Part shown: piece by piece, positions 7,039 to 61,517 of the stretch
Layout: each line of letters starts with the position of its first letter
Position numbering within the stretch: the stretch's first letter is position 1
Origin: Ascidia mentula
Taxonomy: Eukaryota > Chordata > Ascidiacea > Phlebobranchia > Ascidiidae
Assembly (NCBI GenBank): GCA_947561715.1
Contig: OX387203.1
Span: 9,238,001-9,302,000 of the forward strand
Length of the DNA: 64,000 nt
Reading direction: 5' to 3'
Translations under genes and position numbers: made by a program
Notes under the pieces: generated by a model
Told to the model about the DNA's origin: nothing
What the model saw: only the letters and a program-made list of their open reading frames with translations
Databases searched by the model: none

Positions 7039-10000
7039 ATGCTGAAAACTCTTTTCGTTTGTTTATGTTTGCTGGCAATTATTCATGGCGCATCGGCATG
7101 GTAAGTATGTTTGTTGTTGTACGGAGTGAGGTTTGTGATGTGTTTGTAAATCGAATTTTGCCGTCAAAAAGAAATACAAATTGCAGCAAAATGTTCGATT
7201 TACCCCAGAATTTGGACTTCTGCAGGTTGTTTTGGAGTGATTGTAGCACCACGCCCTGTCAATGGAGGTGGGGAAGCTGCTCACGACCTTGTGGAGGTGG
7301 AAGAATGTATCCAACAATAACTCGGAGTAAGGGAGAGTGCGGTTCCTGCAACTTGCCTTACTCGAGATCGTGCAACAACCAATGTTGTCGAGGTAATGAA
7401 ACAGAGAATAGGTTTCTCCTTATTTGCTGTTCAGTGGAAAATGAGGTTAAATTTGTTTTAAATTTATGAACATATCAATGCGACTACAAAAAAACGTGCT
7501 GTTGTGTTGGAACGTAATAGCGATACAGATATTAGCTACAAAGCGTTGTGCGCATTGCTTCGACCTGCCAATACACATCAGTGCAGTTGGTGACTGACAA
7601 CAGTCTTATCAGCTATAAAGAGAGGATCTCACTTTGCAGTTTCTTTGCGCTGGATGTCGCTGCGTTAAGTCCCAAACGAGGTACGAGCGGCTAGAGACAA
7701 ACTGTATTGGATAATACCATCGCCAAGCAACTGCTTGGGATCTAATAGTGTGGCCGGTTTGGTATCACGAACATTATTGGCTCATTCCGTGTACATAATA
7801 TACAGAAATTGGCAATATAACAATTATAATCTACACTCCGAGTGGAAGTTAGTAGTACTCTTTATGAACAAATGTACTTTGAATATAACTGTAATGAAAT
7901 TTTGTAATAAAAAAATTCAATCTCTGTGTTTTAAGATATCGCATTTCGACTATTATCATCATGATTGTTTCAGTGAACTGCTATTGGGCATCATGGAGGA
8001 GTTGGGGTGGATGCTCTGCGAGCTGTGGAAGTGGAATCAGGACACGGACCCGGGGATACGGCCGGAGTGCAAGTTGCGGAGGCAGTCGTTGTTACGGAGG
8101 CTCAACTTCGTCACAGACTTGTAACACAAGATGCTGTCCGGTGAACTGCGCCTGGGGATCATGGGGGAGTTACGGTTCATGCTCCGCCAATTGTGGCGGA
8201 GGAACGCAGTCTAGATCTCGCTCTAAAACAAGATCCCATTCTTGCGAAGGGTCTTGCTCTGGGTTTTCGTATTCTTCTCGCTCGTGCAATACTCACTCTT
8301 GCCCTGTGAATTGTCGTTGGAGTTCATGGGGTGAATACGGGACATGTTCTGTCTCTTGCGGAGGGGGGACACAGGTTAGATCAAGAAATATCTCTGTAAG
8401 TTCCAGGCATGGAAGTTTAGCTTGTTCGGGGCCATCAACGTCTTCAAGTAGATGCAATTCTCAGCCTTGTCCTATTGATTGTCGTTGGAGTTTGTGGGGT
8501 GAATACGGGACATGTTCTGTCTCTTGCGGAGGGGGGACACAGGTTAGATCAAGAAATATCTCTGTAAGTTCCAGGCATGGAGGTTTAGCTTGTTCGGGGC
8601 CATCAACGTCTTCAAGTAGATGCAATTCTCAGCCTTGTCCTATTGATTGTCGTTGGAGTTTGTGGGGTGAATACGGGACATGTTCTGTCTCTTGCGGAGG
8701 TGGAACACAGGTTAGATCAAGAAATATCTCTGTAAGTTCCAGGCATGGAGGTTTAGGTTGTTCGGGGCCATCAACGTTTTCAAGTAGATGCAACTCTCAG
8801 CCTTGTCCTATTGATTGTCGTTGGAGATTGTGGGGTGAATACGGGACATGTTCTGTCTCTTGCGGAGGTGGAACACAGGTTAGATCAAGAAATATCTCTG
8901 TAAGTTCCAGGCATGGAGGTTTAGCTTGTTCGGGGCCATCAACGTCTTCAAGTAGATGCAATTCTCAGCCTTGTCCTATTGATTGTCGTTGGAGTTTGTG
9001 GGGTGAATACGGGACATGTTCTGTCTCTTGCGGAGGTGGAACACAGGTTAGATCAAGAAATATCTCTGTAAGTTCCAGGCATGGAGGTTTAGGTTGTTCG
9101 GGGCCATCAACGTTTTCAAGTAGATGCAACTCTCAGCCTTGTCCTATTGATTGTCGTTGGAGTTTGTGGGGTGAATACGGGACATGTTCTGTCTCTTGCG
9201 GAGGTGGAACACAGGTTAGATCAAGAAATATCTCTGTAAGTTCCAGGCATGGAGGTTTAGCTTGTTCGGGGCCATCAACGTCTTCAAGTAGATGCAATTC
9301 TCAGCCTTGTCCTATTGATTGTCGTTGGAGTTTGTGGGGTGAATACGGGACATGTTCTGTCTCTTGCGGAGGTGGAACACAGGTTAGATCAAGAAATATC
9401 TCTGTAAGTTCCAGGCATGGAGGTTTAAGTTGTTCGGGGCCATCGAAGTTTTCAAGTAGATGCAACTCTCAGCCTTGTCCTATTGATTGTCGTTGGAGTT
9501 TGTGGGGTGAATACGGGACATGTTCTGTCTCTTGCGGAGGTGGAACACAGGTTAGATCAAGAAATATCTCTGTAAGTTCCAGGCATGGAGGTTTAGCTTG
9601 TTCGGGGCCATCAACGTTTTCAAGTAGATGCAATTCTCAGCCTTGTCCTATTGATTGTCGTTGGAGTTTGTGGGGTGAATACGGGACATGTTCTGTCTCT
9701 TGCGGAGGTGGAACACAGGTTAGATCAAGAAATATCTCTGTAAGTTCCAGGCATGGAGGTTTAGGTTGTTCGGGGCCATCAACGTTTTCAAGTAGATGCA
9801 ATTCTCAGCCTTGTCCTATTGATTGTCGTTGGAGTTTGTGGGGTGAATACGGGACATGTTCTGTCTCTTGCGGAGGTGGAACACAGGTTAGATCAAGAAA
9901 TATCTCTGTAAGTTCCAGGCATGGAGGTTTAGCTTGTTCGGGGCCATCAACGTTTTCAAGTAGATGCAATTCTCAGCTTTGCCCTATCAATTGTCGCTGG

Positions 10001-13000
10001 AGTTTGTGGGGTGAATACGGGACATGTTCTGTCTCTTGCGGAGGTGGAACACAGGTTAGATCAAGAAATATCTCTGTAAGTTCCAGGCATGGAGGTTTAG
10101 GTTGTTCGGGGCCATCAACGTTTTCAAGTAGATGCAATTCTCAGCCTTGTCCTATTGATTGTCGTTGGAGTTTGTGGGGTGAATACGGGACATGTTCTGT
10201 CTCTTGCGGAGGTGGAACACAGGTTAGATCAAGAAATATCTCTGTAAGTTCCAGGCATGGAGGTTTAGCTTGTTCGGGGCCATCAACGTCTTCAAGTAGA
10301 TGCAACTCTCAGCTTTGCCCTATCAATTGTCGTTGGAGTTTGTGGGGTGAATACGGGACATGTTCTGTCTCTTGAGGAGGGGGGACACACGTTAGATCAA
10401 GAAATATCGATGTAAGTTCCAGACATGGGGGTTTAGCTTGTTCGGGGCCATCGAAGTCTTCAAGTAGATGCAATTTTCAGCCTTGCCCTATCAATTGTCG
10501 TTGGAGTTTGTGGGGTGAATACGGGACATGTTCTGTCTCTTGCGGAGGTGGAACACAGGTTAGATCAAGAAATATCTCTGTAAGTTCCAGGCATGGAGGT
10601 TTAGCTTGTTCGGGGCCATCAACGTCTTCAAGTAGATGCAACTCTCAGCTTTGCCCTATCAATTGTCGTTGGAGTTTGTGGGGTGAATACGGGACATGTT
10701 CTGTCTCCTGCGGAGGGGGAACACAGATTAGATCAAGAAATATCTCTGTAAGTTCCAGGCATGGAGGTTTAGCTTGTTCGGGGCCATCAACGTCTTCAAG
10801 TAGATGCAATTCTCAGCCTTGTCCTATTGATTGTCGTTGGAGTTTGTGGGGTGAATACGGGACATGTTCTGTCACTTGCGGAGGGGGAACACAGGTTAGA
10901 TCAAGAAATATCTCTGTAAGTTCCAGGCATGGAGGTTTAGCTTGTTCCGGCTTGTCGATGTCCATAAGAAGTTGCAACACCCACCCATGTCCAATGCATT
11001 GCATCTGGGGAGCGTGGAGCGAATTTGGAAAATGTTCTGTGAGTTGTGGTGGCGGAAATAAGATGAAAACAAGATCGGTGCAAGTAAAAGAACAACTTGG
11101 TGGCACAAAATGTGCGGGCGAAACATTCTTTAACCAATCCTGCAACACTCGGCCTTGCCCTGTTGATTGTTTATGGGGAGAATGGAGCAATTACGATAAA
11201 TGCTCTGTAAGTTGTGGTGGGGGAACTCAAACAAAACTTAGGAACATTGCTCGATACGTAAGGCATGGAGGTTTAAATTGCACAGGACCAACCGAGCAGT
11301 CGCAAAGATGCAACACCCAATGTTGTCCGGTTAACTGCCAGTGGGGACAGTGGAGTAAATTTAAGGATTGTTCCATTGAATGTGGTAACGGCACACAATA
11401 TCGCAATCGACAGGTTGTGGTTGCAGCTGACTGCGGTGGTCAAGGATGTTTGGGCGAAGATACCTCGTCACAATTCTGTAACACTCACTGCTGTCCCATC
11501 GACTGCCAGTGGGTAGAGTGGAGTGATTTCGGCGAGTGTTCTGTCCCATGCGGTGGAGGCCAAAAACACCGTCAACGCCAAGTTTCTGTGGAGCTAGCGT
11601 GTGGCGGACGATCCTGCAATGGTTTAGGTATTGATTCAACACCGTGTAACACACACCCATGTCCTGTGGATTGTGTCTGGGGTAACTGGGGTGTGTGGGG
11701 CAACTGCAATGTTACCTGCGGTGGTGGATCCAGGTTCAGATCAAGAAAGGTTGACGTGGAAGCACAGCATGGGGGATTCGAATGTGAAGTTCAATTATAT
11801 GAGTCAGAGTAAGTGTTTATTGAATAGAAATGCATGGTGTTTGGTACTTGTCATGAGTGGGAATGTGGCGATTTTGTGTTGGCACCAGATATCACTCAGC
11901 TTCCCATTTGTTAGATTCCCTGTTCCTAATTTGCTAAAAATTTACTGCTCATTACTACTTTCTATAACAATAAACAATTATTTGCAGAATCTGTAATCAA
12001 AATTGTTGTCCAGTCAAATGTGTCTGGAACAATTGGAGTGTTTGGACAATCTGCTCCAAAACGTGCCAGAATGGTTGGTAGTTATTTGGTATGCTTTCTG
12101 GCATAGATTGAAAAAAAAACGTAACAAAATTGTTTCTTTGAAGGAACGCAATCAAGGTTGAGAAGTGTCAGTGTGACGCAAACATGCGGTGGTTCCCCTT
12201 GCAATGGCAGCTTCATGGAAGAGAGAACGTGCAATGATGTTTGTTGTCCTGAAGATTGTGTGTGGGGCCAGTGGTCAGCTTGGGGAGAGTTAGTATTTAT
12301 TTTGGCTCTTGTACCCATCTAAATGTTACCGTAATGATTCGTTTTCTCTGAAGGCAATTTTCTGGAAAACAATTACTATCAAAGTTTGACACTGCATTGC
12401 TTCATAGGATGTATAAATTAGCGATAATCAAGTTTATATGATGCTAAAAATTAGTTGATAATTTGTCCAGATGCAGCAAAACTTGCGGCACAGGCTCTAA
12501 GGTACGGGAAAGAAATATTCACTTGAACAAGACCTGCAACGGGGCGGAATGCGTTGGTGATCACAGGGATGAACAAAAATGCAACTCTCAGTGTTGTTCT
12601 GGTATGTTGTCTCGGAATAGCTGAATAACAGTTCAGAAATTCGTGTCAAAATCTTGAAATCGAAACCCAAATAACACTCTGTCTGCAAAGAATCAGGAGG
12701 ACAAATTTTTGTTTAGTGAACTGCACTGTATCGGATTGGGAAAACTGGAGCGTTTGTCCACAAACATGTGGTGTGACGAACAACAAAGTCAGGAACAGAT
12801 CAGTGATCACTAATAACACGTGTGGAGGGAAGGTGTGCCCGACCCTGCAGGAAGTTGAGAGTTGTGAAGTGATTTGTTACAATGGAGCAACTGCGACTGC
12901 TTCAGGATGTTTATGTCAACCAGGGTGGAGCGGTCTGTGTTGCGATCAAGGTATTTTGTTTAATTATGTGGTTTGTTATATCTGCAATAGAAAAGTGGCA

Positions 13001-15244
13001 ATGAATTTTTTTGTGATGTAATAAGTAATCTGCAGCTTCAAAAGCTTTTAAAAGTGTTACAAAACTCTTGGAATTTTGAAAGATCAGCACAGTAAATGAG
13101 TAATTTGCAGCAATGGTAGCAATTACGTGGCTGTCTGCATTTCCAGACGTTGACGAGTGCACGCAACAAGGAAATAGTTCATGCCCCTTGAAATCAGTGT
13201 GCATCAACACAGAAGGAAGTTACCAATGTGATTGCGACCCAGGCTACCAGAAAAACAGCAACATGGAATGTGAAAGTAGGTTTTTGGCTCGTGTTGCAAT
13301 TCATTGTGAAAAACACCGAAACTTTTTGAAAAAACATGTTTACTTCTATATTGGTTACTTAGTGTTTAAGCATTCAATACGCGGTTTGTTCTTCCATGCA
13401 ATACAAGTTTTGGCTCGAATAACAACTAATTCTAAACCTTCTGTTACAGATGTTGATGAATGCATAAACGAGATTTCAAATTGCCACCAAAACGGTCGAT
13501 GCGTTGACACTGATGGAAGTTTTTTTTGCATGTGCGAGCATGGATTTTCAGGAAATGGAACAGTCTGCTTAGGTATGCCACTGGTCCTTTTTTGATCATT
13601 TAAATAAAATCGCCTGCAGAATCCTTACACTATTAACAGTAATTTTAATTAGACGACAAAACAAGAGCAAGCATTCATGATATTAGATTCCTAATTTTAA
13701 TTTTAGGTCAACATAGTTAATGATACAACTTTGGAATTATGTATTTTATTCGTCCAGATATTAATGAGTGTGAAGCAAACACTGCTCTCTGCCCAGACAA
13801 CACCATATGTGTCAACACTAAAGGAAATTATTCATGTCCATGTCTGACTGGCTTCGTGTCTCAATTTGGGCTATGTTCTGGTTCGTACTGACAAAATAGT
13901 GATGGTTATTCGATAGTTAATGTTAGGTTTGAAAACACAGTTCACATTTTTCAATTAAGTATTCAACAATTTTGGACACTGTTTTGTGAGCCCACGCAAT
14001 GTAATAGCTGAAATTGCTAAGTTAAGCGGTTGTAAAGCGGGCGACTTTAGCATGGAAAAAGTATGCATTATTTCAGAAATATTTGCTTGTTATATTTTGT
14101 TGAACAGATGTTAACGAGTGCCAGCAAGGGAATGCCGGGTGCGCTGTCAACGCAAATTGCGAAAACACGTTCGGTTCGTACAAATGCTTCTGCAATGAAG
14201 GAATGTCCGGGGACGGAAGGACTTGTGTTGGTAAGAATTAAACTTGCTTATGTTTGCTTGTTCGGCAACTGGTGATTTGAAACGAAACATTCAACATAAA
14301 AAATAACTACTATAAGTCCTCACCAATATCAACCAACACAAAAAATTAAACATCTGCTTTAAAACACACGTTATCCTTGAGTTTAGTTTGCGTTTCATTC
14401 ATCAAAAATATCACGTTTTATTGGGGATTTCCGTAACAATTTAATAGTAATGATGTAAATACAGTACAGTTAGGGCTTGTCACACCTATGCCACCATCCA
14501 TTTTCAAAATGGTTTATTAAGGTTTTATTCTTTGATCTCAGTTATGATTTAATAAAACACTTTTGCCTTGAAGACATCGACGAATGTAGCGACCCACAGA
14601 AGAAACCTTGCACCGGTGACTACATGGAATGTCAAAACACAGTGGGTAGTTTTCAATGTACATGTCCTTCCTACATGGGCCTCCAAGATGGAAACTGCGT
14701 TGGTAAAAACTACTTTGCAAATTTTTATTTAAATGTAAAAGAGGGTGTATTGAGCTTACAACCAAAGCTATCAACAACCTTTTGTGCAATAGTGTAGATT
14801 GATTTACAAATACAAATCAAGCAGCATTGATGAATAATTGATCTAATCTAATAATCTAATCTAATTACCCCTACTGGCATGTGACAAACTTTCGGTTTAG
14901 AACTTCCGCCAAACTTTGTTTCGAGGAAAAAGAAAGAACCGTCAGCGTCAGGCGGAACCATAATTATAAAGTTGACGCTTTACGTGCTTTCGGGAATCGT
15001 GGTGATCCTACTGCTCGTATTTGTTGCAGTGCAGGTAAATTAAATCTTTGTAATGTATTCCAGTACGTTTTTTATGCCAACTGTTGTAACTGTGTAATCC
15101 ATGCTCATGTTGTGCTTTTTAACCAATTTATTGTATAAGGTGTACAAAGGAGTGGCAAATTCAGAGACCGAAATATTGACAAATCCGTCTCACTGTGAAC
15201 ACAACGCAATAAAACTGGACGAAATTAATGACGAAGATCTTTAA
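7039..15244 (+). CDS. TSR/EGF type I membrane protein, copy 2 (full exon set)
   Basis: Cell-surface protein of 14 exons: 7039-7100, 7226-7392, 7974-11808, 11988-12073, 12144-12288, 12471-12601, 12717-12950, 13147-13275, 13450-13572, 13758-13880, 14108-14230, 14574-14702, 14901-15034, 15140-15244. These sum to 5526 nt (1842 codons), with phases matching at every junction. Order: signal peptide (MLKTLFVCLCLLAIIHG), one short TSR, two divergent TSRs, a 16-unit homogeneous TSR array, eight divergent TSRs, one EGF, five calcium-binding EGFs (DVDEC, NVDEC, DINEC, DVNEC, DIDEC), one membrane helix (LSGIVVILLLVFVAV) and a tail of about 34 residues ending INDEDL. One in-frame TGA at 10373-10375 replaces a conserved TSR cysteine codon (TGC in other units). 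Otherwise the gene reads through. The architecture suggests adhesion or recognition; the ligand is unknown. I do not recognise an orthologue. Confidence 0.85.
8307..10946 (+). repeat. Coding tandem array of 168-bp TSR units in copy 2 (about 16 copies)
   Basis: Same unit as the first array, with GEYGTCS codons at 168-bp steps from 8331 to 10851. Here units mostly alternate between [12 protein letters not shown] and GLGCSGPSTFSS forms, so the effective repeat is a 336-bp dimer, unlike the four-unit pattern of copy 1. The flanking divergent TSRs are shared between the two copies, so each array has been reshaped separately. Confidence 0.92.
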
Positions 15245-15299
15245 CATCTGAATGTGACACTTTTGACATTGAAATATGTCCTCACATGTGTTGTTTACA

Positions 15300-15305
15300 A
15301 ATAAA
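15300..15305 (+). terminator. Poly(A) signal of TSR/EGF copy 2
   Basis: AATAAA lies 56 nt after the stop codon. The same short 3' UTR, with the same hexamer, is found downstream of the minus-strand paralogue that ends at 58795. Confidence 0.7.
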
Positions 15306-15359
15306 GCTTTGGAATATTTTTCGCATATTTGATCATTTTATGACACTATTCTTTTGAAA

Positions 15360-17990
<2,631 letters not shown>

Positions 17991-17999
17991 TCAACACAG

Positions 18000-20040
18000 C
18001 CTCGGGATTTGCACCGTCTAACTTGCTCTTGACAAAAGAAAAAACCCAGCGGATTGCAACATGTCAGATAAAGATTTCAAGGAACTTAAACAACACAAAA
18101 TATCGTATACTGATAATATATGTCTCATGCAATATGTTTTTAAGAATCGTTGGTGATGCTATATGGATTGATAGTTAGATTTTAATCTATGCCAAATAGT
18201 CATGACATTTCGTCATCGGGAACAACTGTGCCAACGCGAGCGTAAACACAGTGTATGTGTCTTCAAATGCTGTTGAAATTTTTCGCGGAACTTTGTCATT
18301 TCCTTTCTTCCTTTCAAATGTTTTTTTTCCAAGTACTGTTCCTGGTATTCTGTATGGTTGCCACGTGAACTACTATGTAACAAGAGATAAGTTATCGTGC
18401 CTGTCTTGTGCCCCGTCAAACGGAACTTAGTAAGAATAAAATTGTACGTATTATTTGGAAGAATCATTCATAATCGAATAAGATCAGACTATATGACCAA
18501 AAATATAGCTATGCACAAAGTAAAGTGCAACATACTTTGTCGATCGTTGTATGCTACATGTTTTACAACTTTAATATCAGAGGTAAGATAGCCTTAATCT
18601 TCATTCAAATTTTCCTATTAAGCACGTATCAACTAGTACGACTAATTTGAACTTGTTGTTAGTAAATTCATTCAGAATGCTGAAAAATTATCTCTAATAT
18701 TAAACTCACTTTGTATGTGCCTACGAACATTACACTACTTTATGTAGAAATAATGGGTATGGTTTTCTTTCAAACAATTCATCAAGGGTTTCTAACCAGC
18801 GTGATACTGGTTTTCAAAACCTTTGCAAATTAGTTAGGGGCCATTTAACTGTAGCTTTTTGGCATTTCATCCGTCTATTAAGCAAACGCCCAAGGTGTTG
18901 GCAATAGTGGAGCGGTATGTATGTGTTTCATGACACGTTGCAGCGCACTGTATAATGTATAATGTGGTTTATAAATTTAGCCAATTGAAAAGTCCTGCAC
19001 TGAATTGTTAAAACAATAAATCCACAGCAAAATGACAGTCACAATTAAACGATAAAAATTTGAGGAAAAAGTTGATAAGATTTATAGCAAAATGAGTGAT
19101 AAACTGTTATTTAATTTTCAACTTTGCACTGAAATGCAATGGGTTCAAATAAACCAAGCTCGAATATGATTTGTGTCGTGTTGTTTCATCAAAATCAGTT
19201 TCAGATCAGCAAAAAACACGTCACAAAACTCGACTTGTAATGACCGCCGATTTCCGTATTCGTTAATACGATTGTATGATTTTCAGCCTCTGGCGCTAGA
19301 AGAATTGTGTAAATAATCGCCAATATTACTCAGAGGAAATATCGAATACTTCTGGAACGTCGGACGGAACGAAGGATGCAGACAGAGGCTTTCCTGTAGT
19401 AGTCCCACAGCCTTCTGGCATCCGGTTCAACGACTGACCCTTTTCATTGCAACTTGTTAAACACGTGTGACCTGTTCACATTCAATCTGCCACCCAACTA
19501 GTCTCTGCCACTTAACTTACTGCCTATAGCACAGCAGTTACTCGCTCAGTCAGTCTAGTATTTATCATTATCTCACAAAAGCACGTTTTATGGTAACTAA
19601 CTTGCTACAATTCAGTCACGTGTTTTCATTCTTAAACATTAACTCGAAGTCATTTACGCGCTTTGACAATTTAACAAACGCTAATTGATACTGAAACGTG
19701 TTCTTCAACTGATGAATAACTCTGCTCGCGGATTCAAAACCAGTAGTCGTAGGTAAAGAACACACACAACAGACTTAGTTTCAAACATTTGGAGGCTGCA
19801 GAACTGGTAGATGGAATTGAATAGTAATTTTTGCGAACTCTAATCGTTAAAAATAAAGGAAAATGCACAATTCTTGAAAAATTATTTCACTTTCAGGTTA
19901 TATAGGGGAGACCGGGGATACCTCGGACACGGGGATACCTCGGACCAGGTATTTTACGTCACAATTAGGTATTGTTAAGACACTTTTACAAAAGCCTTAT
20001 GTCTCCATCAAACGTTAACAGGAACTTTGGAATTAAATCA
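18000..20040. other. Intergenic stretch with no gene seen
   Basis: AT-rich sequence with only short incoherent ORFs and no conserved splice pattern. The only local structure I see is a short G-rich direct repeat near 19908-19946, with two copies of 'ggggatacctcgga'. Confidence 0.5.
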
Positions 20041-20049
20041 TGTCTGCAG

Positions 20050-45990: not shown

Positions 45991-46079
45991 ACAGCACAGA
46001 AGTAGTAACCGAACGAGAATAAGCTTTCATAGTGGATACCGATTCTGGTCTGTTTGCGATAGGGCAAGCTATAGCACAA

Positions 46080-48210: not shown

Positions 48211-51200
48211 TTAGGCAATAGTTTTTAAATTGGCAAATCTAGGATTGTATGAACCCATTCCTCGCTGGAGCGACCATTCTTTCGGTTTTGTGGCGAAGCG
48301 CATTTTCTGCACATCCGCTTGGACCCACCAAGATTTAAACCATAGTTGAATCTTCCTGAAGAAAACGTGGACGTCTTGAAGGGTTTGGACAAAGATTTTT
48401 TTGTGAAACAAATTCACGTTTTTCCATTTCGCTAAATTAGATTTTAATTCCGATTTTAAAGCTACATGTTTTTCCTTCCTAATATCAGCTGGTAAGTTTG
48501 CTGTGAAAGCCTTGCCTATGTTTTCCACTTCGTCATAACCTATTTCCATCTGGGTACCGGTCATTTTTGTTCCAGAAAGCATCTAGTAAATAATAGGAGT
48601 TTTAAATAATATTACATTTACACAAGTTTGGCCAACGAGAGGTTTTGTTGTGGAATTCACAAGGAGTGGAAAAGTAAATACGAACATATTTCCCACCCAT
48701 TGCATTTCTTCATTCCATTGTTTCAAAAGGAGTTGTAGTAGAACTGATGATCTTTTTCGTTGAAAATTCTGGCATAAATAGATAAGCGTCTAATAATTAA
48801 ATTACAAATAATTTTCCCAGTAGCCAATTCTCACCAAGTACAATTCATTGTATTTTTGCTGTGTTCCTATCCACTTTTCAACTGTTTCCTTTGGACAAAG
48901 AGATAATATTTCCTCGGTATTTGCCGAACTTCTCCATTTATTTAAACTTTTTTCGGAAATGGAAAACAAGGCTTCAACTCGAAACATCTTAAAAATTATA
49001 CTGCAATAATGTGTTTGGAAAATCAACAGAAATGTTTTATTTTGTGTTTACTTACCGATGTTGTATCAGCAATATTTTGCTTGCCCAAAGAATGAATGCT
49101 TTGCATTGCCTTTTCCAATTCAACACGATTCTTTGTCTAGGAAAAATGCATGTAAGTGCTTATATTTCTGCAGAAATGAACACAGGAATGTAATGCCTCA
49201 CGTATTCTTTTGGTTTATATTCAACGTCATTTTGATCATTGGAGGTTAAAACCTGGTGAAAGTAGTGTTTAACGATGTTGTCCATCGCAGAATCAAGTTT
49301 TTGTTTGAAATGATCCTGCCACGTTTTTGGAAGTGTCGTCAGATGATCAACAACAAAATCGTCCATCGTTAGATTTTTGATACTCAGGACGTTTCTCTTA
49401 AGTATGCCTTTATTTTTGACCTAAGTAAGCGAAAAGCAAACAAATGCAGCAGGCCAAGAGCTTTTCATGTACAAAGTCGTCTTACCTTTTCTTGAAAATT
49501 TTGAAGCACATTTTCAGATTCCTTCAAAAGAGCGATAGCAGTATTTACCTACAATATACACAGTTTCTTGCATTTGACGAGGCATAAAATATTCGTAAAT
49601 TGCTGTCACATATTAATAAAACGTTGGTGTGTGTGTGTGCTTCTCAGTCCGACAAGTTTCATACCCTATTGTGTTTCATGTTTGACTAAACTTGTTTTCT
49701 TTTGCAATAAACTTGTTTCATCGTTTTTGAAAAATTAGGCTTCGCTCTAAAGTCCTTTTAACAACTAAATAAAGAAAAAAATTGTTTGGTTTTACCTTTT
49801 GTAGTTCATTATCCTCCACAAATACCCTTAATAATAGGGCAAGCTTCTTTTTCAGTTCAATCAGCAGTTCTGTTTCAAAAGTTTTGTCAACCACTTTGTC
49901 GCCTGCTGTGTCCTCGAACAGTTTTATTGCGTTGTTTTTTATTTCACCAAACTCTTCCTTTATTCTATCAGCAGACAAGAAGCGACGTTGCTCTACGAGT
50001 CTTCTGTATATTCTCTAAAGTCATTTGTTTTGCGTTAAGCTATTTGTTATGTACTGTTCTGTCTGCACACACAAACCTTAAACTCATCAAGGCATGCATC
50101 GAAACAGTCTTCCATCAACAAGCGGTATAGCTCCCACACACCTGCCTGTGCATAAAAAGATAACAAACATTGATTTATTTTATTTGAACAAAAATCGAAT
50201 AAACCAGATATTATCTAATCATCCTAGTGCCAAAGTTTTTAGTCGACAAAGCAATTAATTTTTCCCACAAAGATAATATAACGTCCCGAATAATATACTA
50301 AGCACTGTAAAATATAAATGCATCTCAATACTGCATTGCCAACAACCTTAAAATTTATACAGCCAACACACCCTTGAAATATTGTTTAGATTTTCAGCAA
50401 TAAAGATTCTTTCTTCAAGACTCGTTTCCAAATCAAGTCGACTTTGTGAAACAAAGTGTTGCAATTCAGGCTTTAGTCTGGTGTCAAACTTTCTCATCAC
50501 TTTATTAAGAATTGTTGAATGAGTATTTTTCAAAACTTCTTTGGACATGTATTTGTTTTCAGTTAAGGCAACCTGAAAACAGACATTCTTGAAAGTTCAT
50601 AGCAGTTGCGATTAAGCGCATGCCTAGGACAGACCTGTATTTCTTTGTAGAAATCATCTTCGCTGCTCTTCACAAGATTTGCAACAATTGTGGTTGATAA
50701 TGCCTGAATATAGTCTTAAAAGTAAAAGAAATAGTTTCAATAATGACAGACAAAAAAACCTGAAAGATTCCTTTCGGATCCAATAGGTTTTTTTCAATTT
50801 TTTCAGAAATTGCTAATGCCATGTTGATAATATCCTCTCCTTTGAGCGTCAAATCATTAAGTTTCTTTACTTGGATTTCCTCAAACATTTTTTTTAGTAC
50901 TTTGTCAGTTGCTTCCAAAAACATTGAGTCAATATCTGTGTTTAACAAACCAAAACAAACCTACAAAACTGTAATTGATGTGAGGTAATTGCCATTTAGA
51001 GATAAGTGTTACAGAAAGACAGAAATATTGGGATATAGCAAATGAAATATGGTGCTTCGTTTTTCAGCTTGTGCATTTGGTGAAACATTTGGCATGAAAT
51101 GCATAAGAATAAAAAACATACCTTTTATAAAAGCTTTAGTGTTGGTTTCGTCTCTCCATGTTATTTTATTTCCAGGGTGCGGAAGCAAAGCGCAATTTAC

Positions 51201-52662
51201 TTCTTTGAAAGATGTTTTGATATTTCTGCATAAAGATTGGTACTCTGCAGACTTTTTTTTATGTTGTTGCATTGCTGTCTGTAGATGGAGTATACCACCT
51301 TCAAAACCGAATTCATAACCTTTGGTTTGCCAATCCCTCACAAGAAAGAGCAACGTCTACCGATTTTAACAATACATTGTTAATGTTTTTGGTGCGTTGA
51401 AGGCAAGATTCGTCGCACAATATTACTTCAAAAGCAACCATCTTACTTGGTAACTTTCACATAGGTTTGCACCAAACACATGACTTCCACAATCTGAAAA
51501 CCTCTTTACACAAATATTAGATTGAAAAGTTAGTTAATGATATTATCTATATATGTAAAAACCGACCTTCAGTTTATTCAAATGTAATGAATCTATCATA
51601 CTCATTACATTGTAAATCTGGCATGAACTTAAAAAAGTACTTAAACAGAAGACAACAGAATCGGAAAACTCCGAATTTTTCCCGTCAAAAACACCTTGTG
51701 TATCCATAAGAAACACAGCTATCTGTGTAGATACAAAAACATACATATTACCGCAGTATTTTTTTCACGTGATTATGTAATGTTGTTGTTTATATTATTG
51801 GTAACTACACCACTAAAGAAGGAACTTTAGCCTATCAGACCCACAAGGCGAAGCTATTAAAAATCCTTTATATTTATTACCCTGAGGAAGCCTAGCTGAA
51901 TAGCAGGTGACACGTCGGTCAATAAAAGTTGCGTTTAAGTGTGCCAGAAGGACAGATTATTAGAATAAATTCTATTCAGCTGCAAACCTTTTCGTGTTCG
52001 TTACTTTTTAGCCAAAACGGTTCACTCCAAACCAATATTCCTTCAGTGTGAGACTCAGTTCCCGGACGCCATTCAAAGTTCTTGTTTAACTCGGCATTTT
52101 GGTCGTTCTTCCACTCGTCTTCCTGTATCAGAGATTCAAGTTTAAAAGAAACTGAGGTAAATTTAACAAAAAAAGTGTCAAAAACTTTCGGAATTGTAAT
52201 GCACAAACTTTCTTTGAATGCATTTGACGGCGATGTCCTGTTTGATAAGTGGTATTGTCATATGAGCTAACCTGGTTTTTCACAAGAAAGTCCAAGTATC
52301 TTGACACCAAGTTCATAAAAAAGGACTTTCCCCGTCTTAAGCATCCTGCAATTGAGTAGATTGCAACAGGGGATTTTCGAATGTCGTTTCTTCCGAAAAC
52401 TTTTTCGATTTCATGTTGATCAATCAGGTGCACATATTCCTCGTTTACTTCTTTCTTCTTTGTTATTGTAACCGCTTAAATACGACCAGACTAGTTTAAA
52501 AATTTTATTTCGTGTAGTTATTAAGAAGGAAGTCATTATACATCAACATATGCTGCGCCCGAATATTTGTAAAGCAGGGTAGATAATGTTTAATACTGCA
52601 TTTGCATACAGTTACTTACCACAAGGCGCACTTGGAAGCGCTGGCGATGGGATTGGGAACAT
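48211..52662 (-). CDS. Atlastin-like large GTPase, gene B
   Basis: Inverted paralogue of gene A with the same 17-exon structure, from an ATG exon at 52620-52662 (MFPIPSPALPSAPC) through the G1 exon at 52272-52474 (GCLRRGKS), the exon near 51987-52122 (WRPGTESHTEG), the DTQG exon near 51.6-51.7 kb, the LVRDW exon near 51.1-51.35 kb and helical exons to the last exon (stop at 48211). All splice sites and frames I checked are intact, including the exon-13 donor (CAG|GTTTTA) that gene A has lost. The protein matches gene A throughout with scattered substitutions. The catalytic motifs imply GTP binding and hydrolysis, and the lack of a visible membrane hairpin separates it from true atlastins. Of the two copies, this is the better candidate for a fully functional gene. 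Confidence 0.86.
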
Positions 52663-52975
52663 GAGATCACTTCACAGCAAAATAGAGCTTCTGTAACTAA
52701 TTACATGAGGTGTTTAAATAAAAGTGTTGGACATGTCACATAAAGATGGATGTCCTTTAGTAATAAGCGAATTGCCGTGATGTAATATTTTCAACCTTAA
52801 TCGACAGAGCACAGTAGCCCTACGTGTCCAGGATAATATGATTTTTTGGATTTCGCTTTATCCCGTCAAGAAAAAAATACTTCCATTTAGCTTGGGTGCA
52901 ATGTCGGTGAAATCTGAAAGATCTAAAGCTATATCTGCAAATATAATGTTTTTGTTGCATCCAGGCATATTGTAA

Positions 52976-53126
52976 CTTAATAATCTGTTCTTCTGGCAGA
53001 GATAAAACGTAACTTTATTCACCGACGTTTCGCCTGTTATTCCACAATGAAGCCTTGTTGAATAACAGGCGAAACGTCGGTGAATAAAGTTACGTTTTAT
53101 CTTTGCCAGAAGAACAGATTATTAAG
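52976..53126. repeat. Near-perfect hairpin element (about 2 x 70 bp)
   Basis: The left arm from 52976 (cttaataatctgttcttctg) is repeated inverted up to 53126 with only a few mismatches around a short centre near 53055. It is bounded by a direct repeat 'atatctgcaaat' (52931 and 53130), which may be a target duplication. Related, more decayed arms lie in introns of both GTPase genes (about 22.37-22.46 and 51.88-51.97 kb). This looks like a foldback or MITE-type element. Confidence 0.75.
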
Positions 53127-53159
53127 TTATATCTGCAAATACCAGTTCGCGTACTGGTT

Positions 53160-53800
53160 TAGTCACTCTCCTTGTAGGGTGCAAAGGTAAATATATATAA
53201 ACGCATGTGACGTCATATCAATCCAACATGCAACTCGACTTTGCTTGTTACCGTTTATGGGTCTGAGTCTGAACTAAAGTACTGAAGCGAGCAACTCTTT
53301 ATTCTACAAGCGTGTTTTATAAAACTATCGCAAACCAGGAACACGTAACACAAAGCAAGGGAACGTAAGAAAGAAGGCAACATATCCGCTACGTTACACT
53401 CCACCACACAACCCACCTCCAGAAACGACTTTAAGACTCAAAAAGGAAAACGCTCAGGAGGAGGAAGAACAATACGACCAAACCCTTAGATACACAATAG
53501 GGAAAATACGTTCGAGCGTACGAGGCGGGGAATGATGGTTGGGCGTTTCGCGCATGTCATTCTTTTGCAACTTGCACGCTTGCGAGGGTTTACCCCGTTT
53601 AGGCGGTTGTGCCACTGCAACCGGCTCGGTGAGGTCCACGTTAGCCGGTTTGATTGCGCCCCGGAAACTTTGTGGTGGCGTCCCGCCAAATCAAGCGTGA
53701 AGGTGTTTCTGTCCCTTTTCACAACGCGAGAAGGTCCTTCGTAAGGCTGTGTTAAAGGTGGGCAAAGTTTGTCCGTTGGAAGAAACTTATAACGACACGT
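53160..53800 (-). mobile_element. Ty3/gypsy-like LTR retrotransposon fossil, 3' end only
   Basis: The minus strand encodes the C-terminal part of a Ty3-type integrase (PYEGPSRVVKR, then a VSGAQSNRL-like end), followed by a purine-rich tract and then a probable LTR of about 220 bp at roughly 53176-53397 (TG...CA ends, AATAAA inside). Only this 3' piece is present: no gag, protease, reverse transcriptase or 5' LTR is seen. It is a broken copy, probably of moderate age, inserted in the right-hand side with no counterpart on the left. Confidence 0.65.
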
Positions 53801-53959
53801 TTGTGGGTTCTGTATGTGATTGCAACTTGTACTGTGGCCACTTTTATTACAGTCAATAGCGTAAGGTGCTGTATTTGGAAAGGTTAGCGCAAATTTATTG
53901 TACCTTTTATGTTTACAGTTGAGACAAATACGTGTGTCGTAAATCATTTAAAAAGGTAA

Positions 53960-55680
53960 ATTGACGTTGTATAACGTTGTATAATTTCTCCTTTAATGGA
54001 CTTGCGTCATTTAGCAGCAATGTTAAAACTGCACTGAATTTCTACCATTGTCCTATTTCATATAAGTTTATTATCAATATCATGTAGAAAATGTGTTTTG
54101 GATATAATACAGTTTGAAGTTTTCCTTTTGTTGAACACATTTAGTAAATTTGCATTTAATCGAAGTGTTCAGGTTTGATTGCTGGTAAATGTTGCTCACA
54201 TTGAAAATCTATGTACAGGTGTATGTGAAACTATGCATAGACATGTGTGATTTGGTACGGTTATGTTTAAAGCTGTGCACAAAACTCTGCCTGGTTACAA
54301 GGTACTATAAATAAAAAACCCTACAGTAGTGGTTCTCAACTGTGGTCCTCAGTAAAGCTGAAGCCATATGACCCCTGCACATCCATATAAAGGATTTTTA
54401 ACACAGTACGGGCACCCTCCGTGGCCCCCTTAAAAACGATTCGTGGCTCTACAAGTTGGCCATAGACCACCGTTGAGAAATCCTATGGCTCACAGACAAA
54501 CGTTGCACAGAATATAAAACTAATTGTCTTTTAACGCAGGATGTACCGTAAAGGGCAATGAAACATCATTCGAAAATGAATGGAAAAAATTATGGACAGT
54601 ATTGCAGATAAAAACATAATTGTAAATTGCACGAGCGATTATTCAGGAGCACACACTCTACTCCTGTGGCGATCGAGACATAATACAGTTCAAAATAAGG
54701 GGCCTGTCTGAAGCTTCCGTAAACATTATTAACTCTATAATTGCTAATGAATAATAAAATCTGACGCGTTTCTCAACTATACTGAACATTTTAATTTTGC
54801 ACTGCCAAAGATCCTGTAAAAAGCATTTAAAAAAATTGATCGTTGTTTTAACGTTATTGGTGCGCTATCTGACTCAAGCTAACCGCAGTAAGTCGCGAAA
54901 AAAACCAACCATCCCCTTGACTCAACATAGGACGGAAGTATAGTTAAAATTTTTTATCTGTTTCTAACCAGGTTTATATCTGCCAATATAAATTGATCAG
55001 TACATATAATCCAACCTGTGCAGAGACTGTGCATTACAAATGGATCAGCGTGTATATTACGCAGGCCCATATTTATTACGTTTAAGTTTCGGTACAAAGC
55101 GATTACCATAAATGCACCAAAGCAACTTCAGAAGCCTCACTGCAACATTGCTGTAATTTGTGAAACCACTAAAAACATCCCACAAAAAGCAGGCAACGCA
55201 TATACATAATGCAACGCATCATGCATCGACCGATTTGTGTACTAAACTACCTTGGCATGACTTGTACACTGACACTCCCTACGGATGGCTTTTGTCGTAA
55301 AAATAAATGACTATAGTTCCATGTACGTGCGAAACCAACGAAAGTTTACTCTGGGTTGTTACAATGAGTTTGTCACTATGACCTTATAAGGACGTTTTGC
55401 GCTGTGACCTGATGCATACAATGCTGTCGCACCTACTGTACAAGGAAGAATTTACTGCGCGGTTTGGTGGTAAACAGAAATTGAATGTTTGTCATTGCAA
55501 TAAAACCCAACATACAAGGCTCTGTTGTTGCGCAGTGTGATCAAAAGCAGTTTGATACTGATTGTACCATGCGCTGCCCAATTTACGATATCTCGTAAAA
55601 TGAATTCAAAAGCTTGATTGTAGGCAATAATTTGTCGTTACGCTTTAATGTATATTTGGTCAAGTAATGTTCAATGGGTG
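53960..55680. other. Intergenic; contains a small hAT-like nonautonomous element
   Basis: No gene seen. About 54324-54488 is bounded by inverted ends: CAGTAGTGGTTCTCAACTG on the left and the complement of ATTTCTCAACGGTGG on the right. Such ends resemble short hAT-family derivatives. The remainder shows only short incoherent ORFs. Confidence 0.45.
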
Positions 55681-56046
55681 ACTGTCGCAAATAAATTTGC
55701 ACGCATCAAACGAACCTCAGTCCAAATACGTTGCCCATGTTTGGAACTTTAATGGGTGACTTTGGTTTTCCGCTTTATGTGAACAAAAATAACGTTGTTA
55801 TTGTCAAAGAAACCGACGTTTCGTCCACCATCCGGCGAGATGTCTTGTAGCAACGATATGCATATATTTATCTTCGTTACTTAAATTCCCAAGTCGTAAA
55901 AGAAACATTTGACCACACAAATAAACTTTTAGGGATGGGTCAACAAGTCGATCCAAACCACTTCCTACTTTCACAAATCAAAGCAAATTAAATATTTTTT
56001 CTTTGACAATAAAGAATCAAAGGAATTGTGACTCATTGTTTAAACT
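55680..56046 (+). repeat. Copy of TSR-gene 5' flank
   Basis: Matches about 62.03-62.57 kb, upstream of the TSR gene starting at 62666 (shared ccgacgtttcgtccaccatc and gactcattgtttaaactc). Here the flank passes directly into a TSR exon, with the signal-peptide exon and first intron missing. Confidence 0.6.
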
Positions 56047-56202
56047 CGGAATGTGATATCACTCCCTGTCTGTGGAGCTGGGCAAGCTGCTCACGACCTT
56101 GTGGAGGTGGTTGGCAATCTCCAAGAATAACTCGGAGTAGTGGAGAGTGCGGTTACTGCAGATTGCCAAGCTCGAGATCGTGCAACATCCAGTGTTGTCG
56201 AG
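56047..56202 (+). pseudogene. TSR gene fragment: lone exon 2
   Basis: Encodes a short TSR (CLWSWASCSRPCGGGWQSP, then SRSCNIQCCRG) matching exon 2 of copy 2 (7226-7392) and of the gene at 62666, with its GT donor kept. A deletion has fused the 5' flank to this exon, removing the signal peptide, and no downstream TSR exon follows before 57.4 kb. About 700 bp of downstream sequence matches intron 2 of the 62.7 kb gene. Confidence 0.7.
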
Positions 56203-57399
56203 GTAATGGAATAAAGAGCCGGTTTCTCCTTATTTGTTGTTTAGTAGAAAATAAAGTTAAGTTTGCTTTTAATTGATGAAACTGATCATTGTGATTACCA
56301 AACCATGTTGTTGTGTTGGTACATTCGCCAATAAGTTACAGCGATACAGATATTAGCTGCATATCATTGAACGCACTGTCACGACGAATCAGTTCATATC
56401 TGTGCAGCTGGTGACTGGCAATTGCCTTTTCGCTAACTGGCCAGATTATTTCACTTTGTTGTGTCTTTGCATAGGACACGGTTAGGCACCAAACTAAGTA
56501 GGAACTTCCGGAGATGAATAACAGCAAAACACACTATGCCATCGTAAACAACAGGACTTAAAATTGTTTCGATTCGACTGAAAACAATCTCAGTGTTTCC
56601 TTGTGGGTAAACTCACGATTTTATTTTCAGAACTTCCGTCTCACTTACGTGACCTACTGCTAGAGAAGGATGATGTGATGTCTGGCCTTTAAATGACAAC
56701 CCGGAAAGACCCTATTTTTTTCATCATTGCATCTCATGTGATTTATCATCTCTTAATACATTTTAATGAAGCGTGCAATGTATCGATTTTTGTTTAAAAA
56801 ACCTATGAAGTCAATTGAAAAACTCGAAATTTTTGCATGTTGTGGTCTAGTTTTATGAAGATTAATACTTTATGACTGATTGTAACAGGATTTCAATTCT
56901 TTCATTTCGCAGTTCAAATTTCGCGGTGACACAGTTTTAATCGCTGTTCATTGTGATGAAGTTGCTCGGTAATACAATTTGATGGAAATGTAACAATATT
57001 TGCGGAAAATCGTTTTCAGCTACGTTTTAACACTTAAAACGTTTGACACCAGTTTTTGTATAGATTTACGAACATTATGTTGAACAACATGACCAGCAAA
57101 ATTGGATCCTATAAATTAAAGTGCTCATAATTTTTTTAGCCCTCGGTTAAGCGTTGTTTATTTATCTGCAACAGCATAATAACTGTAGTTGATGTATGGA
57201 GTGAAGCAACAAGCCTTTGATTTACGTCAGCAGATTATATGCAGTGAAACTTATTTTATTGTTAAATTTTCGGTAATCATGGATCACAAGGCAAGTTTTG
57301 ATCGTAAAATACATTCTTCAACTAATGAATGGAGTTAGAATCTATTAATAATTTTTTTATTTTATTCTTATTATTGCACCTGGAACACAGTTTGTTCAT

Positions 57400-57500
57400 T
57401 CCTTTTTTCAACCATTCCGGGATTCGAACCCGGGACATCCTGGCCACGAATCCCGATCAGGTTTTCTTCTACGTATATGGGTCGGCTGCTTAACCAATTT
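57400..57500 (-). repeat. tRNA-derived SINE-like segment
   Basis: On the minus strand there is a perfect RNA polymerase III B box (GGTTCGAATCC, 57420-57430) about 50 nt downstream of an A-box-like TGGTTAAGCAGCCGACC (57480-57496). The intervening cctggccacgaatcccgatc block is shared with 20.24, 27.84 and 45.88 kb. It does not fold as a true tRNA by eye, so a SINE head is more likely. Confidence 0.5.
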
Positions 57501-57549
57501 TAATGGACTGCGACTGGTAATCTTTTACGTATCGGTAGGGATATAGGTC

Positions 57550-58750
57550 CTTCATGCGGTCGGTTTATTTTACAATATGCCGATTACTTTGTATCAGAGC
57601 GTAAAATATGACTTGTTTTCTATTATTTCTCCCACGACCTCAAGCGCTTGTATTACAACAATTTTAGGTGCTTGATGTAACCACATTAGACAAAATGCTA
57701 CGTGTTGACTAATTTTGCTTTGTTCATATTTTTGGCCATTATCACGAGGGTGAGGTGCGCTTGCGGTTGGGCTGCTATGCTGAGGTATTTTCCGACTGCA
57801 CAACTTCTTAAATTTCTATGTACAACATTCGTTGTAGTTATATTTGGGCGATGTCCAGTGTATTGAAATTGTGAAATTTTGTCTTTCACATTTTCTTGCA
57901 GTGTAGCACTGTAAAATCATTCACTATTCTGTTTATTATTTTTATTTACGCAATCCAAGGTCATCCATTTAGTTCGCAAGTCGTAAAAGAAACCTTTGAG
58001 CACAAAGTGTATGTTTTCGAACACTGTTTAATCTGGATGGGTCCCAGGTCTATTAAGAGGAATATTTTCCAAAAATACTTACAAGGGAATAATTTACACA
58101 CGCAAGAGAACTTAAAATTGAGACTTGAACGTGACGCGCAGGAGGCCATGGGGTGCGATTGAAGAAATTTTTAGTCATGTTGCAAGTTTTTGGTCACAAT
58201 GCATTTCTTGATCTCTCGTATAAATTTCAATGGGCTTCCTCTAGGATTCTGTAGGTTATATTCCATGATATCTTTAACACCGTCATTACACTGGTTAACA
58301 AAACAAAAAGTAAAGAACACTTTTGCCGATTAATAAAAAGAAGTCAACAACAACAACAGGTTTTGTGCAAACTATCAAAAGGCGCAAAATCACGGCTTTG
58401 ATTTCTTTAAAAGGTATTTTTTTCGAATAATTGTCGATTTTTGACGCCAGGGCTAATTGAAACAGAATGGGGAATGATTGCCAAAGTCACTTAACAAACA
58501 ATGTCGATGTGTTAAATATTTTAGAGACGATGTCAGTTATTTGTTATGGTGTATATTAAAAATGTTGCAAAATATCAGGAAACTACGTGATTTAAAGGAG
58601 GATAATTCATGCTCTGTAATGAACGCATTGTTTTCCCACATTACAAGCTTTCAGTAAATGTCGATAAGAAACTGGTTGATTTGAAAAAAATAGTGTCAAA
58701 AAATAAGAAAATGGGCGAAAAAAATACCAAAGATTTATTTGCAAACAACA
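57550..58750 (-). repeat. 3' flank of the minus-strand TSR copy, copy of the 16.3-17.65 kb palindrome arm
   Basis: Direct match to 16.3-17.65 kb and inverted match to 15.3-16.2 kb. It includes a poly(A) signal on the minus strand shortly after the stop codon at 58795. No independent gene is supported; ORFs such as the one at 58609 are not conserved among the copies. Confidence 0.65.
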
Positions 58751-58794
58751 CATGCGAGGTCATCTTTCAATTTCAAAAGTGTCACAGTCAGATG

Positions 58795-61517
58795 TTAAAG
58801 ATCTTCGTCAATAATTTCGTCACCAACGAAACCGGCATTTTCGAGTTCCGGCTTTATCGCGTTGTCTTCACCGTGAGACGGATTTGTCAACCTTTCGGTC
58901 TCTGAATTTGCCAATCTTTTGTAGACCTTATACAATATATTGGTTAAAAGCACTACATAACATGGCCTACAAAATTACAAGCTGTTACAGTCGGCAAAAA
59001 AGGGTACTGGAATACATAGTAACATATCAGAGGCCTTTATAGTAGCCGATATATATGTAAGATTTCATAAAATAGAAATCGTAATTTGCTAAAATATAAA
59101 ATGTGCAACTTTGCAATTAAGGCGTTCAATCCTTGTGATTTTCCCAATATTCCATTTGCGTTAATCTATTGACTTTTAAAGAAATCCATACAATCATTCT
59201 CCATACAAATTAATGAACTTTTCAAGCCCTCAAAAATGTTACTTTACCTGCAATGCCACAAATACGAGCAGTAGGACCACCAGGCTTCCTGAAAGTACGT
59301 AAAGCGCCAACACTTTAATTCTGGTTCTGCCAGACGCTGACATTTCTTTCTTTTTCTCCCTCATCCACAAAACAAAGTTTGGCGGAAGTTCTAAACCGAA
59401 AGCTTGTCACATGCCAGTTGGGGTAATTAGATTAGATTATTAGATTAAAATAATTACATTATTAAACAATTTCGCATGATTTGTATTTGTACATCAATAT
59501 ACATTACTACACAAAAGGCTTATGCTAGCTTTGGTTGTAAATGTCTACGCTAAATCCACGCTTTTTACACTGAAATAAAAACTTGCAAAGTAATTCTTAC
59601 CAACGCAGTTTCCATCTTGCAGGTCCATGTAGGAAGGACAAGTACATTGAAAACTACCGACTGTGTTTTGACATTCCATGTAATCACCGGTGCAAGGTTT
59701 CTTCTGTGGGTCGCTACATTCGTCAATGTCTGAAAGGCAACAGCGTTTGAATAAATCTTAACTGAAGCCAACCAGCAAAACCCTGGTAAACCACTTTAAA
59801 CAATGGATGGTGGCATAGGTGTGACATGCACATACTGGACTGTATTTACATCATTACTATTAAAGGGTTACGAAAATCCCCAATAAACCGTGATATTTGT
59901 GATTAATGAAACGCGAACTTAAAGATAACGTGTGTTGTCCAGCAGATGTATAATTTTTTTTGTTGTTTCATGTTGGTGAGGCCTGAAATATTTTATCAAA
60001 AAATATGATATTGGTGGTTCTTTATACCATTCTTTACATATTCAGTTGAATATTTCGTTTCAAATCACCAGTAGCCGAACAAACAAACAAAAGCAAGTTT
60101 AATTCTTACCAACGCAAGTCCTTCCGTGCCCGTCCATTCCTTCATTGCAGAAGCATTTGTACGAACCGAATATGTTTTCGCAAGTTGCGTTGACAGCGCA
60201 CCCGGCATTTCCTTTCTGGCACTCGTTAACATCTGTTCAACAAAATATAACAAGCTAATATTTCTGAAATAATGCATAATTTTTCCATGCTAAAGTCGCC
60301 CGCATTACAAACGCTTAACTTGGCTATTACAGCTATTACTTTGCATGTGCTGACAAAAGTCTCCAAAATTGTTCAATGCTTTACATATTGAAAAATTGTG
60401 AACTGTTTTTTTTTTAAACTAACATTAACTAACAAATAACGATCACTATTTTATTACTACGAAACAGAACATATCCCCAATTGAGACACGAAGCCAGTTA
60501 CACAAATACATGAATAATTTTCTTTAGTGTTGGCATATATGGTGTTGTCTGGGCAAGTTTATAGCTACACCCCCAAAAAAAAACTTTTTTTATTAACTAT
60601 GGTTTCCTACAATAAAAGCAAGGAATCTGTATCATGAATGCTTGTTCTTGATTTGTCGTCTTACTTAAAATTGCTGTTAACATTTTGTAAGTGTTCTGCA
60701 GCCGATTGTATTTAGATCATTGAAGGAAGGACCAAGGGCATACCTGAGCAGACTGTTCCATTTCCTGTAAATCCAGGCTCGCATAAGCAAAGAAAACTTC
60801 CATCAGTGTTAACGCATCGACCGTTTTGGTGGCAATTTGAAATTTGGCTTGTGCATTCATCAACATCTGTGACATACGTTTAAGAATTTGTGGTTGTTCG
60901 AGACAAGTGTGTGTCACACTAAACTTTTATTGCATATTGAAGACATATTGAATACTTAAACACTAAGTAACCAATTTGGAAGCAAACATGTATTTTCAAA
61001 CACTGGTTCGGGTGCAGAAGTTTCGGTGTTTTTCACAATGAATTGCAACACGAGCTAAAAACCTACTTTCACATTCCATGTTGCTGTTTTTCTGGAAGCC
61101 TGACACACATCGGTAACTTCCTTCTGTGTTGACGCAGACTGAATTCAAGGGGCATGAACTACTTCCTTGTTTGATGCACTCGTCAACGTCTGGAAAAACA
61201 AACAGTGACGTTTTTGTATTTTACTATTGATAACCACCAAGAAATGGCCAAGGATATACGATATTACTACAGAAAATATGTACCTTGATCACAACATAGA
61301 CCGCTCCACCTTGGTTGACATAAACAACCTGTAGCATTCGCAGTGGCTCCATTGTAACAAACCACTTCACAACTCTCAAATTCCTGCAGGGTCGGACATT
61401 CCTTCCCTCCACACGTGTTATTAGTGATCACTGATCTGTTCCTGACTTTGTTGTTCGTCACACCGCATGTTTGTGGACAAGTGCTCCAGTTTTCTTAATC
61501 CGATACAGTGCAGTTCA
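58795..61517 (-). pseudogene. Decayed, 5'-truncated TSR/EGF membrane protein copy
   Basis: Minus-strand paralogue of the 3' half of copy 2. Exons: 61284-61517 (TSR plus EGF), 61067-61189, 60744-60867, partial near 60470-60560, 60110-60232, 59601-59729, 59248-59390 (membrane segment LVVLLLVFVAL) and 58795-58926 (tail ending IIDEDL). Signs of decay: a TAA replaces the Trp codon in the TSR near 61499, a 6-nt loss removes a cysteine region in the first calcium-binding EGF, the second EGF exon has an extra T that shifts the frame, and the third EGF exon has lost its first half and its donor. The last four exons remain intact. The tail is about nine residues longer than in copy 2. No TSR array or signal peptide lies upstream; homology ends just past 61.54 kb. 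Confidence 0.8.

Follow-up and report, generated by a model that had tools for sequence, protein, structure and literature searches.

Guanylate-binding proteins (GBPs) of vertebrates are soluble proteins that form a clustered multigene family, and proteins of the hemicentin and thrombospondin type carry thrombospondin repeats (TSRs) followed by calcium-binding EGF domains. The fuhc locus of Botryllus and the self-sterility loci of Ciona consist of genes that are, by their domains, other than the ones described here. We analysed a stretch of 64,000 nucleotides from the ascidian Ascidia mentula (the window; contig OX387203.1, C71 in our numbering, C71:9238001-9302000), in which a TSR/EGF gene (T) stands next to an atlastin-like GTPase gene (G). 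Positions within the window count from its first letter, and seven-digit positions and those marked k (thousands) refer to the contig. T has the TSR and EGF order of the hemicentin and thrombospondin type but differs by a homogenised array of 16-32 units (five copies), a transmembrane (TM) segment and a short tail. G has the GTPase domain PF02263 in common with vertebrate GBPs, but its sequence is much closer to atlastin and no GBP C-terminal domain was matched in the pieces scanned. The closest described protein that we found is BmAtlastin-n of Bombyx mori, given in the available part of its report as an antiviral protein of 770 aa with a coiled-coil middle and no TM segment (PMC4926086). G shares with it an atlastin-type GTPase domain in a protein with no TM segment found. 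Compared by description rather than in a joint tree, BmAtlastin-n is an insect gene, whereas G is an amplified ascidian family beside T. The available parts of the reports on fuhc and Ciona self-sterility (PMC3691228, PMC7018956, PMC8849226) describe ascidian gene clusters or pairs as well, fuhc with secreted and membrane forms; polymorphism is reported for those loci, whereas the T/G cluster is known from one assembly. No account of this T and G cluster was found in the titles and abstract openings of the open-licence literature, and the accessible part of a lancelet pangenome paper on immune GTPases mentions neither atlastin, GBP nor thrombospondin (PMC12373286).

The window lies inside a T/G cluster that spans about 1 Mb of a single chromosome, probably chromosome 7. 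The cluster is best read as young, immune-like and shaped by birth and death. We consider it probable that this is a young recombining cluster in which T and G represent separate families with roles in defence or recognition, adjacent by hitch-hiking. We see in the cluster a concrete candidate repertoire for lineage-specific defence or self-recognition; it also shows that physical pairs of unrelated families can arise through duplication alone. The genome searched comprised 195.8 Mb in 79 contigs, from one individual, one haplotype and one assembly. Its only COX1 match carries AGA and AGG at conserved glycines and an in-frame TGA, as in the ascidian mitochondrial code (table 13), and a sponge origin was rejected on these codons. 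The window, 200 kb of the surrounding cluster and short loci were compared base by base, and the remaining cluster as coordinates and identities. Matches below 250 bases were dropped from the comparison with the 200 kb, and the exon survey of T copies dropped EGF matches below 62% and anchor or N-terminal matches below 60% identity. At least 44 copies of the T anchor exon, which holds the last TSR plus EGF, were counted. One lies at 13.84 Mb and the others (at least 43) at 8.76-9.74 Mb, a number that omits at least four additional T fragments (8817k, 8888k, 8894k and 8931k). For the last G exon, 18 copies were placed at 8.80-9.54 Mb (14 at 79% identity or more, four at 31-44%), and further G relatives lie at 10.08-10.13 Mb and beyond. 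Over the whole genome, at least 154 GBP-domain exon matches fall in several clusters. In its tandem arrangement, recent expansion, and birth and death of copies, the multigene cluster resembles what is expected of a recognition or immunity cluster.

The initial annotation had described the window as a mirrored two-gene module in inverted duplicate. Its left order was borne out, with T from 7039 to 15244, the 3' flank and GTPase A at 21866-26091, all on the plus strand. On the right, GTPase B (48211-52475) and a T copy (58795-61518) do lie on the minus strand with a shared 3' flank, but the T copy is a fragment without the array. The mirror itself is real by self-comparison of the window. Inverted matches join 13125-15050 to 61211-59231 (80%), the T 3' flank 15053-15464 to 59017-58537 (72%), and 21414-27326 to 52919-46944 (87% over 6.1 kb). 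A second T 3' flank match joins 16030-16160 to 58322-58196, and shorter ones join 29705-29959 to 46953-46698 (93%) and 29955-30301 to 46453-46107 (95%). Because the main inverted matches run at 80-87% over kilobases with self-comparison E-values of 0, they are not due to chance. The claim that the two sides have the same 3' flank holds for the two flank matches only, since the bulk of the spacers differs, and each spacer belongs to its own repeated unit type.

The left half belongs to a unit that we call type I. Window positions 11801-29299, a T-spacer-G segment of 17.5 kb that spans the end of T, the spacer and GTPase A, are colinear and in direct order with 8788531-8806103 and 8858492-8876400 at 94-96%. 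The type I spacer (15245-21413) contains an inverted repeat (15366-16160/16716-17601) and zinc-finger fragments of the C2H2 type (17645-17881). It is present, through full or partial matches of 88-98%, at seven places including the window, all on the plus strand. Other sites in the cluster, including some in or close to minus-strand units, hold shorter or weaker pieces of it, and the zinc-finger part of the spacer is about 80% identical to stretches on other chromosomes. The type II spacer on the right (52920-58794, of which 53130-58536 was searched) occurs at three places including the window, all on the minus strand; it is 95% identical in the two other minus-strand units, and pieces recur more widely at lower identity. 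There are thus about 10 T and G units, seven of type I on the plus strand and three of type II on the minus strand. A close G follows T within 30 kb in six of the seven type I units, the seventh (9513k) having a distant relative only; a close G is present in each of the three type II units, and a T anchor is among the matches listed for two of them. The joint duplication of a surface protein and a dynamin-superfamily GTPase, proposed from the window, therefore reaches far beyond it. As the sequence comparison shows, the window is the junction of one type I and one type II unit, facing each other across a central block.

GTPases A and B are not sisters. Among the matches listed, the nearest relative of A is the G copy at 9386362, 123 kb away, with 95-100% identity in each of eight sub-windows; A and B are 91-94% identical in seven of these and 66% in the eighth, which lies in the flank. 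In the last exon (120 aa), identity to A is 98% for 9386362, 94% for 9018851 and 88% for B, and 8872809 and 8802512 reach 84-85%. Over most of the surrounding DNA the latter two are closer to A than B is, and this conflict of rankings indicates that the G copies are mosaics. At non-coding sites A and B differ by 9.5%, and three type I copies by 2.6-4.6% from one another. A one-step inverted duplication was rejected because A and B are not sisters and the spacers come from different unit types. What remains of the inverted duplicate is the mirror, but its right half is another unit type. Identities of G loci took in flanks; the 3' flanks of 9018851, 9437438 and 9445887 are not homologous to that of A, and the low overall values of these loci do not describe the genes. 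An apparent closeness of B to 9115236 and 9025064 was dropped, since flanks had been counted with the loci. The sequence comparison shows that T and G travel together on a segment, 17.5 kb or longer, which has been duplicated repeatedly in direct order on the plus strand (type I), and of which a more diverged inverted version on the minus strand (type II) was duplicated in turn. Unequal crossing-over and gene conversion may then reshuffle the copies, some of which die; mosaic copies, homogenised arrays and broken copies all point to such turnover.

Four indirect tests bear on whether T and G are linked by function. For partner intactness we judged four units. At 8789k/8802k T is open and G is broken, and at 8859k/8872k both are open; in the window, the left T has a stop and its G is open, and the right T is dead and its G is open. 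Both partners are thus open in one unit of four, and one partner is broken while the other is open in three. The histories of T and G were compared in three units. The left T block is 99.1% identical to that of the 8859k unit and 96.9% to that of the 8789k unit, and the non-coding divergence of GTPase A is 4.6% from the G of the 8859k unit and 2.9% from the G of the 8789k unit. These values modestly suggest that the two histories are partly discordant. A discordance at unit 9006854/9018851 was dropped, because its G is 95-99% identical to A within the gene and only the 3' flank differs. Of the 21 TSR loci outside the cluster, one has a GBP match less than 100 kb away, against 0.84 expected from the covered length, so that the two are neighbours no more often than by chance (positions were taken from the best candidates, exons merged by eye, and TSR loci less than 200 kb apart counted once). 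Finally, among the matches listed, no T accompanies the close G relatives at 10.08-10.13 Mb, and the T copy at 13.84 Mb lacks a GBP within 1 Mb. The four tests lean toward hitch-hiking, and a looser cooperation of the two families is possibly compatible with them. Being copies of a single segment, the units do not provide independent evidence that T and G are linked. The pairing is best read as a by-product of segmental duplication, and repeated copying can explain the closeness. The likeness to recognition or immunity clusters that had been seen in the window is plausible from family resemblance, but a functional link finds no support in the indirect tests run.

Several points weigh against this interpretation. 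The defence role is drawn from family resemblance. Base-by-base comparison outside the window covered 200 kb and short loci, and T and G intactness was judged in four units. The discordance of T and G concerns three units, the stronger case at 9006854/9018851 having vanished. Many copies are 98-99.9% identical, and some could be haplotype copies placed in series. The regular presence of a close G might also reflect selection on the pair. That reading leads to a two-part recognition system, in which T is a surface sensor, the neighbouring G an effector or trafficking GTPase, and their linkage is selected as a cassette. The order from T to G is the same in both unit types, the distance from the anchor to the first modelled G exon is 9.15 kb on the left and 9.05 kb on the right, and in six of seven type I and three of three type II units the T anchor or spacer has a close G no more than 30 kb away. 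These regularities come from segment copies that are not independent, however, and one partner is broken beside an open one in three of the four units, T and G histories disagree in part, and each family has copies without a listed partner, G at 10.08-10.13 Mb and T at 13.84 Mb. We therefore regard a selected cassette as unlikely. A bolder form, in which the cassette multiplies as a unit in both orientations and is shuffled by conversion so that each individual would have its own set of sensor-effector pairs, seems to us quite unlikely.

GTPase A was modelled with 14 exons and 746 codons, the model starting after the first coding exon. GTPase B has the same 14 modelled exons and is 87.2% identical to A over 6.1 kb. 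Exon lengths and frames are alike in A, B and the 8872k copy, and all 14 exons are open in A and B; in the 8802k copy, two exons contain frame-breaking deletions. The GTPase domain matches the Pfam GBP family PF02263 at 2.2e-41, and in the PDB its nearest relative is atlastin-1 (1.8e-40), with the best GBP at 8.3e-8. Pfam gave no match to the GBP C-terminal domain (GBP_C) in the three G pieces scanned. G is, by these two results, not a GBP proper. The domain is of the atlastin type, with the residues FLVRDW aligned to atlastin-1; we take FLVRDW to be the motif named RD (G4). No TM segment was found in the 14 modelled exons, where the top 19-aa hydropathy is 1.2, within the GTPase domain, versus 2.87 for the TM segment of T. 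G thus lacks, in the modelled exons, the two tandem TM segments that define atlastin. An atlastin GTPase domain, 746 codons and no TM segment found place it with TM-less atlastin-like GTPases of the BmAtlastin-n kind. The dN/dS values are 0.40-0.77 for G pairs and 0.39-0.60 for T pairs; being below 1, they indicate that some copies are under constraint. The G product would be cytoplasmic and may assemble, driven by GTP, on membranes or on compartments that contain pathogens, as GBPs do. Like BmAtlastin-n and the GBPs, it may serve as a cell-autonomous defence GTPase.

GBP/atlastin-like GTPase domains are strongly expanded elsewhere in the genome as well, at C52 20.97-21.44 Mb, C67 9.9-10.1 and 21.5-22.3 Mb, C72 13.0 Mb, C70 4.4-4.6 Mb, and C2 11.1 and 17.0 Mb. 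Next to GTPase A, the upstream stretch 20044-21743 is repeated on the plus strand at 27613-29299 (84.7%), possibly as the remnant of a second tandem G start.

The left T runs from 7039, the first codon of a signal-peptide-like exon, to a stop codon at 15242-15244. It has an N-terminal TSR, 16 TSR units of 168 bp, further TSRs and, after the anchor exon, five EGF_CA domains, a TM segment of mean hydropathy 2.87 and a short tail (41 aa modelled). With signal peptide and TM segment judged by eye and hydropathy, this is the layout of a TSR/EGF transmembrane surface protein. One in-frame stop interrupts its array at 10373-10375. An upstream tandem T copy on the plus strand (1-6848), truncated at the window edge, comprises a TSR array, an anchor (6312-6545) and the start of EGF1 (6744-6848). 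It is broken by a stop and a frameshift, and a TM exon was looked for in it and not found. In the window self-comparison the two copies form a direct repeat with an offset of 6.4 kb (1886-6842 versus 8285-13244, 95.7%). Five array regions have 16, 17, 23, 24 and 32 units, that of 24 being truncated by the window edge. The units are homogenised, with 13 of 56 positions varying in more than 5% of 112 units and a pN/pS of 0.73 over distinct variants. Since array length differs and units are homogenised, the T protein varies more in length than in sequence. Open frames of 1361 and 1773 aa cover the arrays at 8784k and 8853k, and the array at 8772-8780k is split across three frames. A TM segment and short tail occur in a minority of the listed T copies, and the short T genes at 8763k and 8844k, whose 3' ends were inspected, end right after an EGF3-like exon, which suggests secreted forms. 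From these features the T products are predicted to be surface or secreted proteins. They would act outside the cell or at its surface, as signal peptide, TM segment and domains indicate, and may bind ligands or other cells. Two short T copies 80 kb apart (C71:8768508 and 8848901) are 99.9% identical over 3.2 kb and represent either a very recent duplication or a haplotype copy.

The membrane and apparently secreted forms of T would also suit a locus of gamete or allo-recognition, at which polymorphic EGF/TSR surface proteins act as in egg coats or sperm and the GTPases are passengers. An ascidian egg-coat protein with EGF repeats and sperm proteases that bear TSRs are described in the available part of one report (PMC8849226). 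Against this stand the homogenised TSR units, with 13 of 56 positions varying, and the Pfam matches of the T pieces scanned, among which there was no ZP, astacin or polycystin domain. We judge this explanation very unlikely.

Identities of 98-99.9%, as found between some copies, fall within the range of allelic divergence in ascidians. That two haplotypes were assembled in opposite orientation or in series is nevertheless highly improbable, given about 10 units of two types with different spacers, a divergence of 9.5% between A and B at non-coding sites, and an assembly described in the available part of its report as HiFi 74x with Hi-C, one haplotype, 1.2% duplicated BUSCOs and QV 64.9 (PMC11109543); this evidence argues more strongly against an artefactual mirror than against single extra copies of haplotype origin.

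The T copy on the right side of the window keeps EGF4, EGF5, the TM segment and the tail open. Its anchor exon contains a stop, EGF1 has lost a cysteine through a deletion, and EGF3 has a frame-breaking deletion. An N-terminal exon and a TSR array were sought on the minus strand and not found, and with the stop and the deletions this marks the copy as a decayed fragment. Its stretch 61211-60151 is 84.0-86.3% identical to three full T copies and to four fragments. The same anchor codon is a stop in the fragments 8817k, 8888k and 8894k, and not in 8931k. The type II sister unit at 9491257 has an anchor exon with no stop, which means that some type II T genes may still be alive. Two T N-terminal TSR exons lie here on the plus strand. 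One is an orphan exon match at 56049-56204. The other (63029-63184) belongs to the start of a next T gene at 62666-64000, which has a signal peptide from 62666 and continues beyond the window; positions 61923-64000 are 96.9% identical to 8889395-8891501. These two plus-strand exons indicate that the right side is a mosaic.

The two unrelated genes that had been placed in the central block could not be confirmed, as the eight central open reading frames (ORFs) gave no Pfam match at E 0.01. A minisatellite of 126 bp at 33094-35544, seen in the window self-comparison, is 98.5% identical on a shift of one unit; its open hydrophobic frames of 230 and 482 aa are probably non-coding. When the central 15.5 kb were compared with the 200 kb, only 44906-45414 matched, at 67-69%.

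Further observations concern the spacers and TSR or EGF genes elsewhere. The zinc-finger stretch of the type I spacer (17.7-20 kb) is about 71-90% identical to repeated clusters at C67 3.8 Mb and at C52 8.9 and 19.5 Mb. Within the type II spacer, a 153-aa ORF on the minus strand (53486-53947) has 93% copies downstream of G in two type I units; Pfam found nothing in it, and we take its letters to resemble the C-terminal end of a retrotransposon polyprotein. A second TSR group, without GBP neighbours among the matches listed, was seen at C73:11.83-11.97 Mb. At C69:2.55-2.57 Mb and C67:20.20 Mb, many EGF matches fall in single open frames, of 4113 and 3878 aa.

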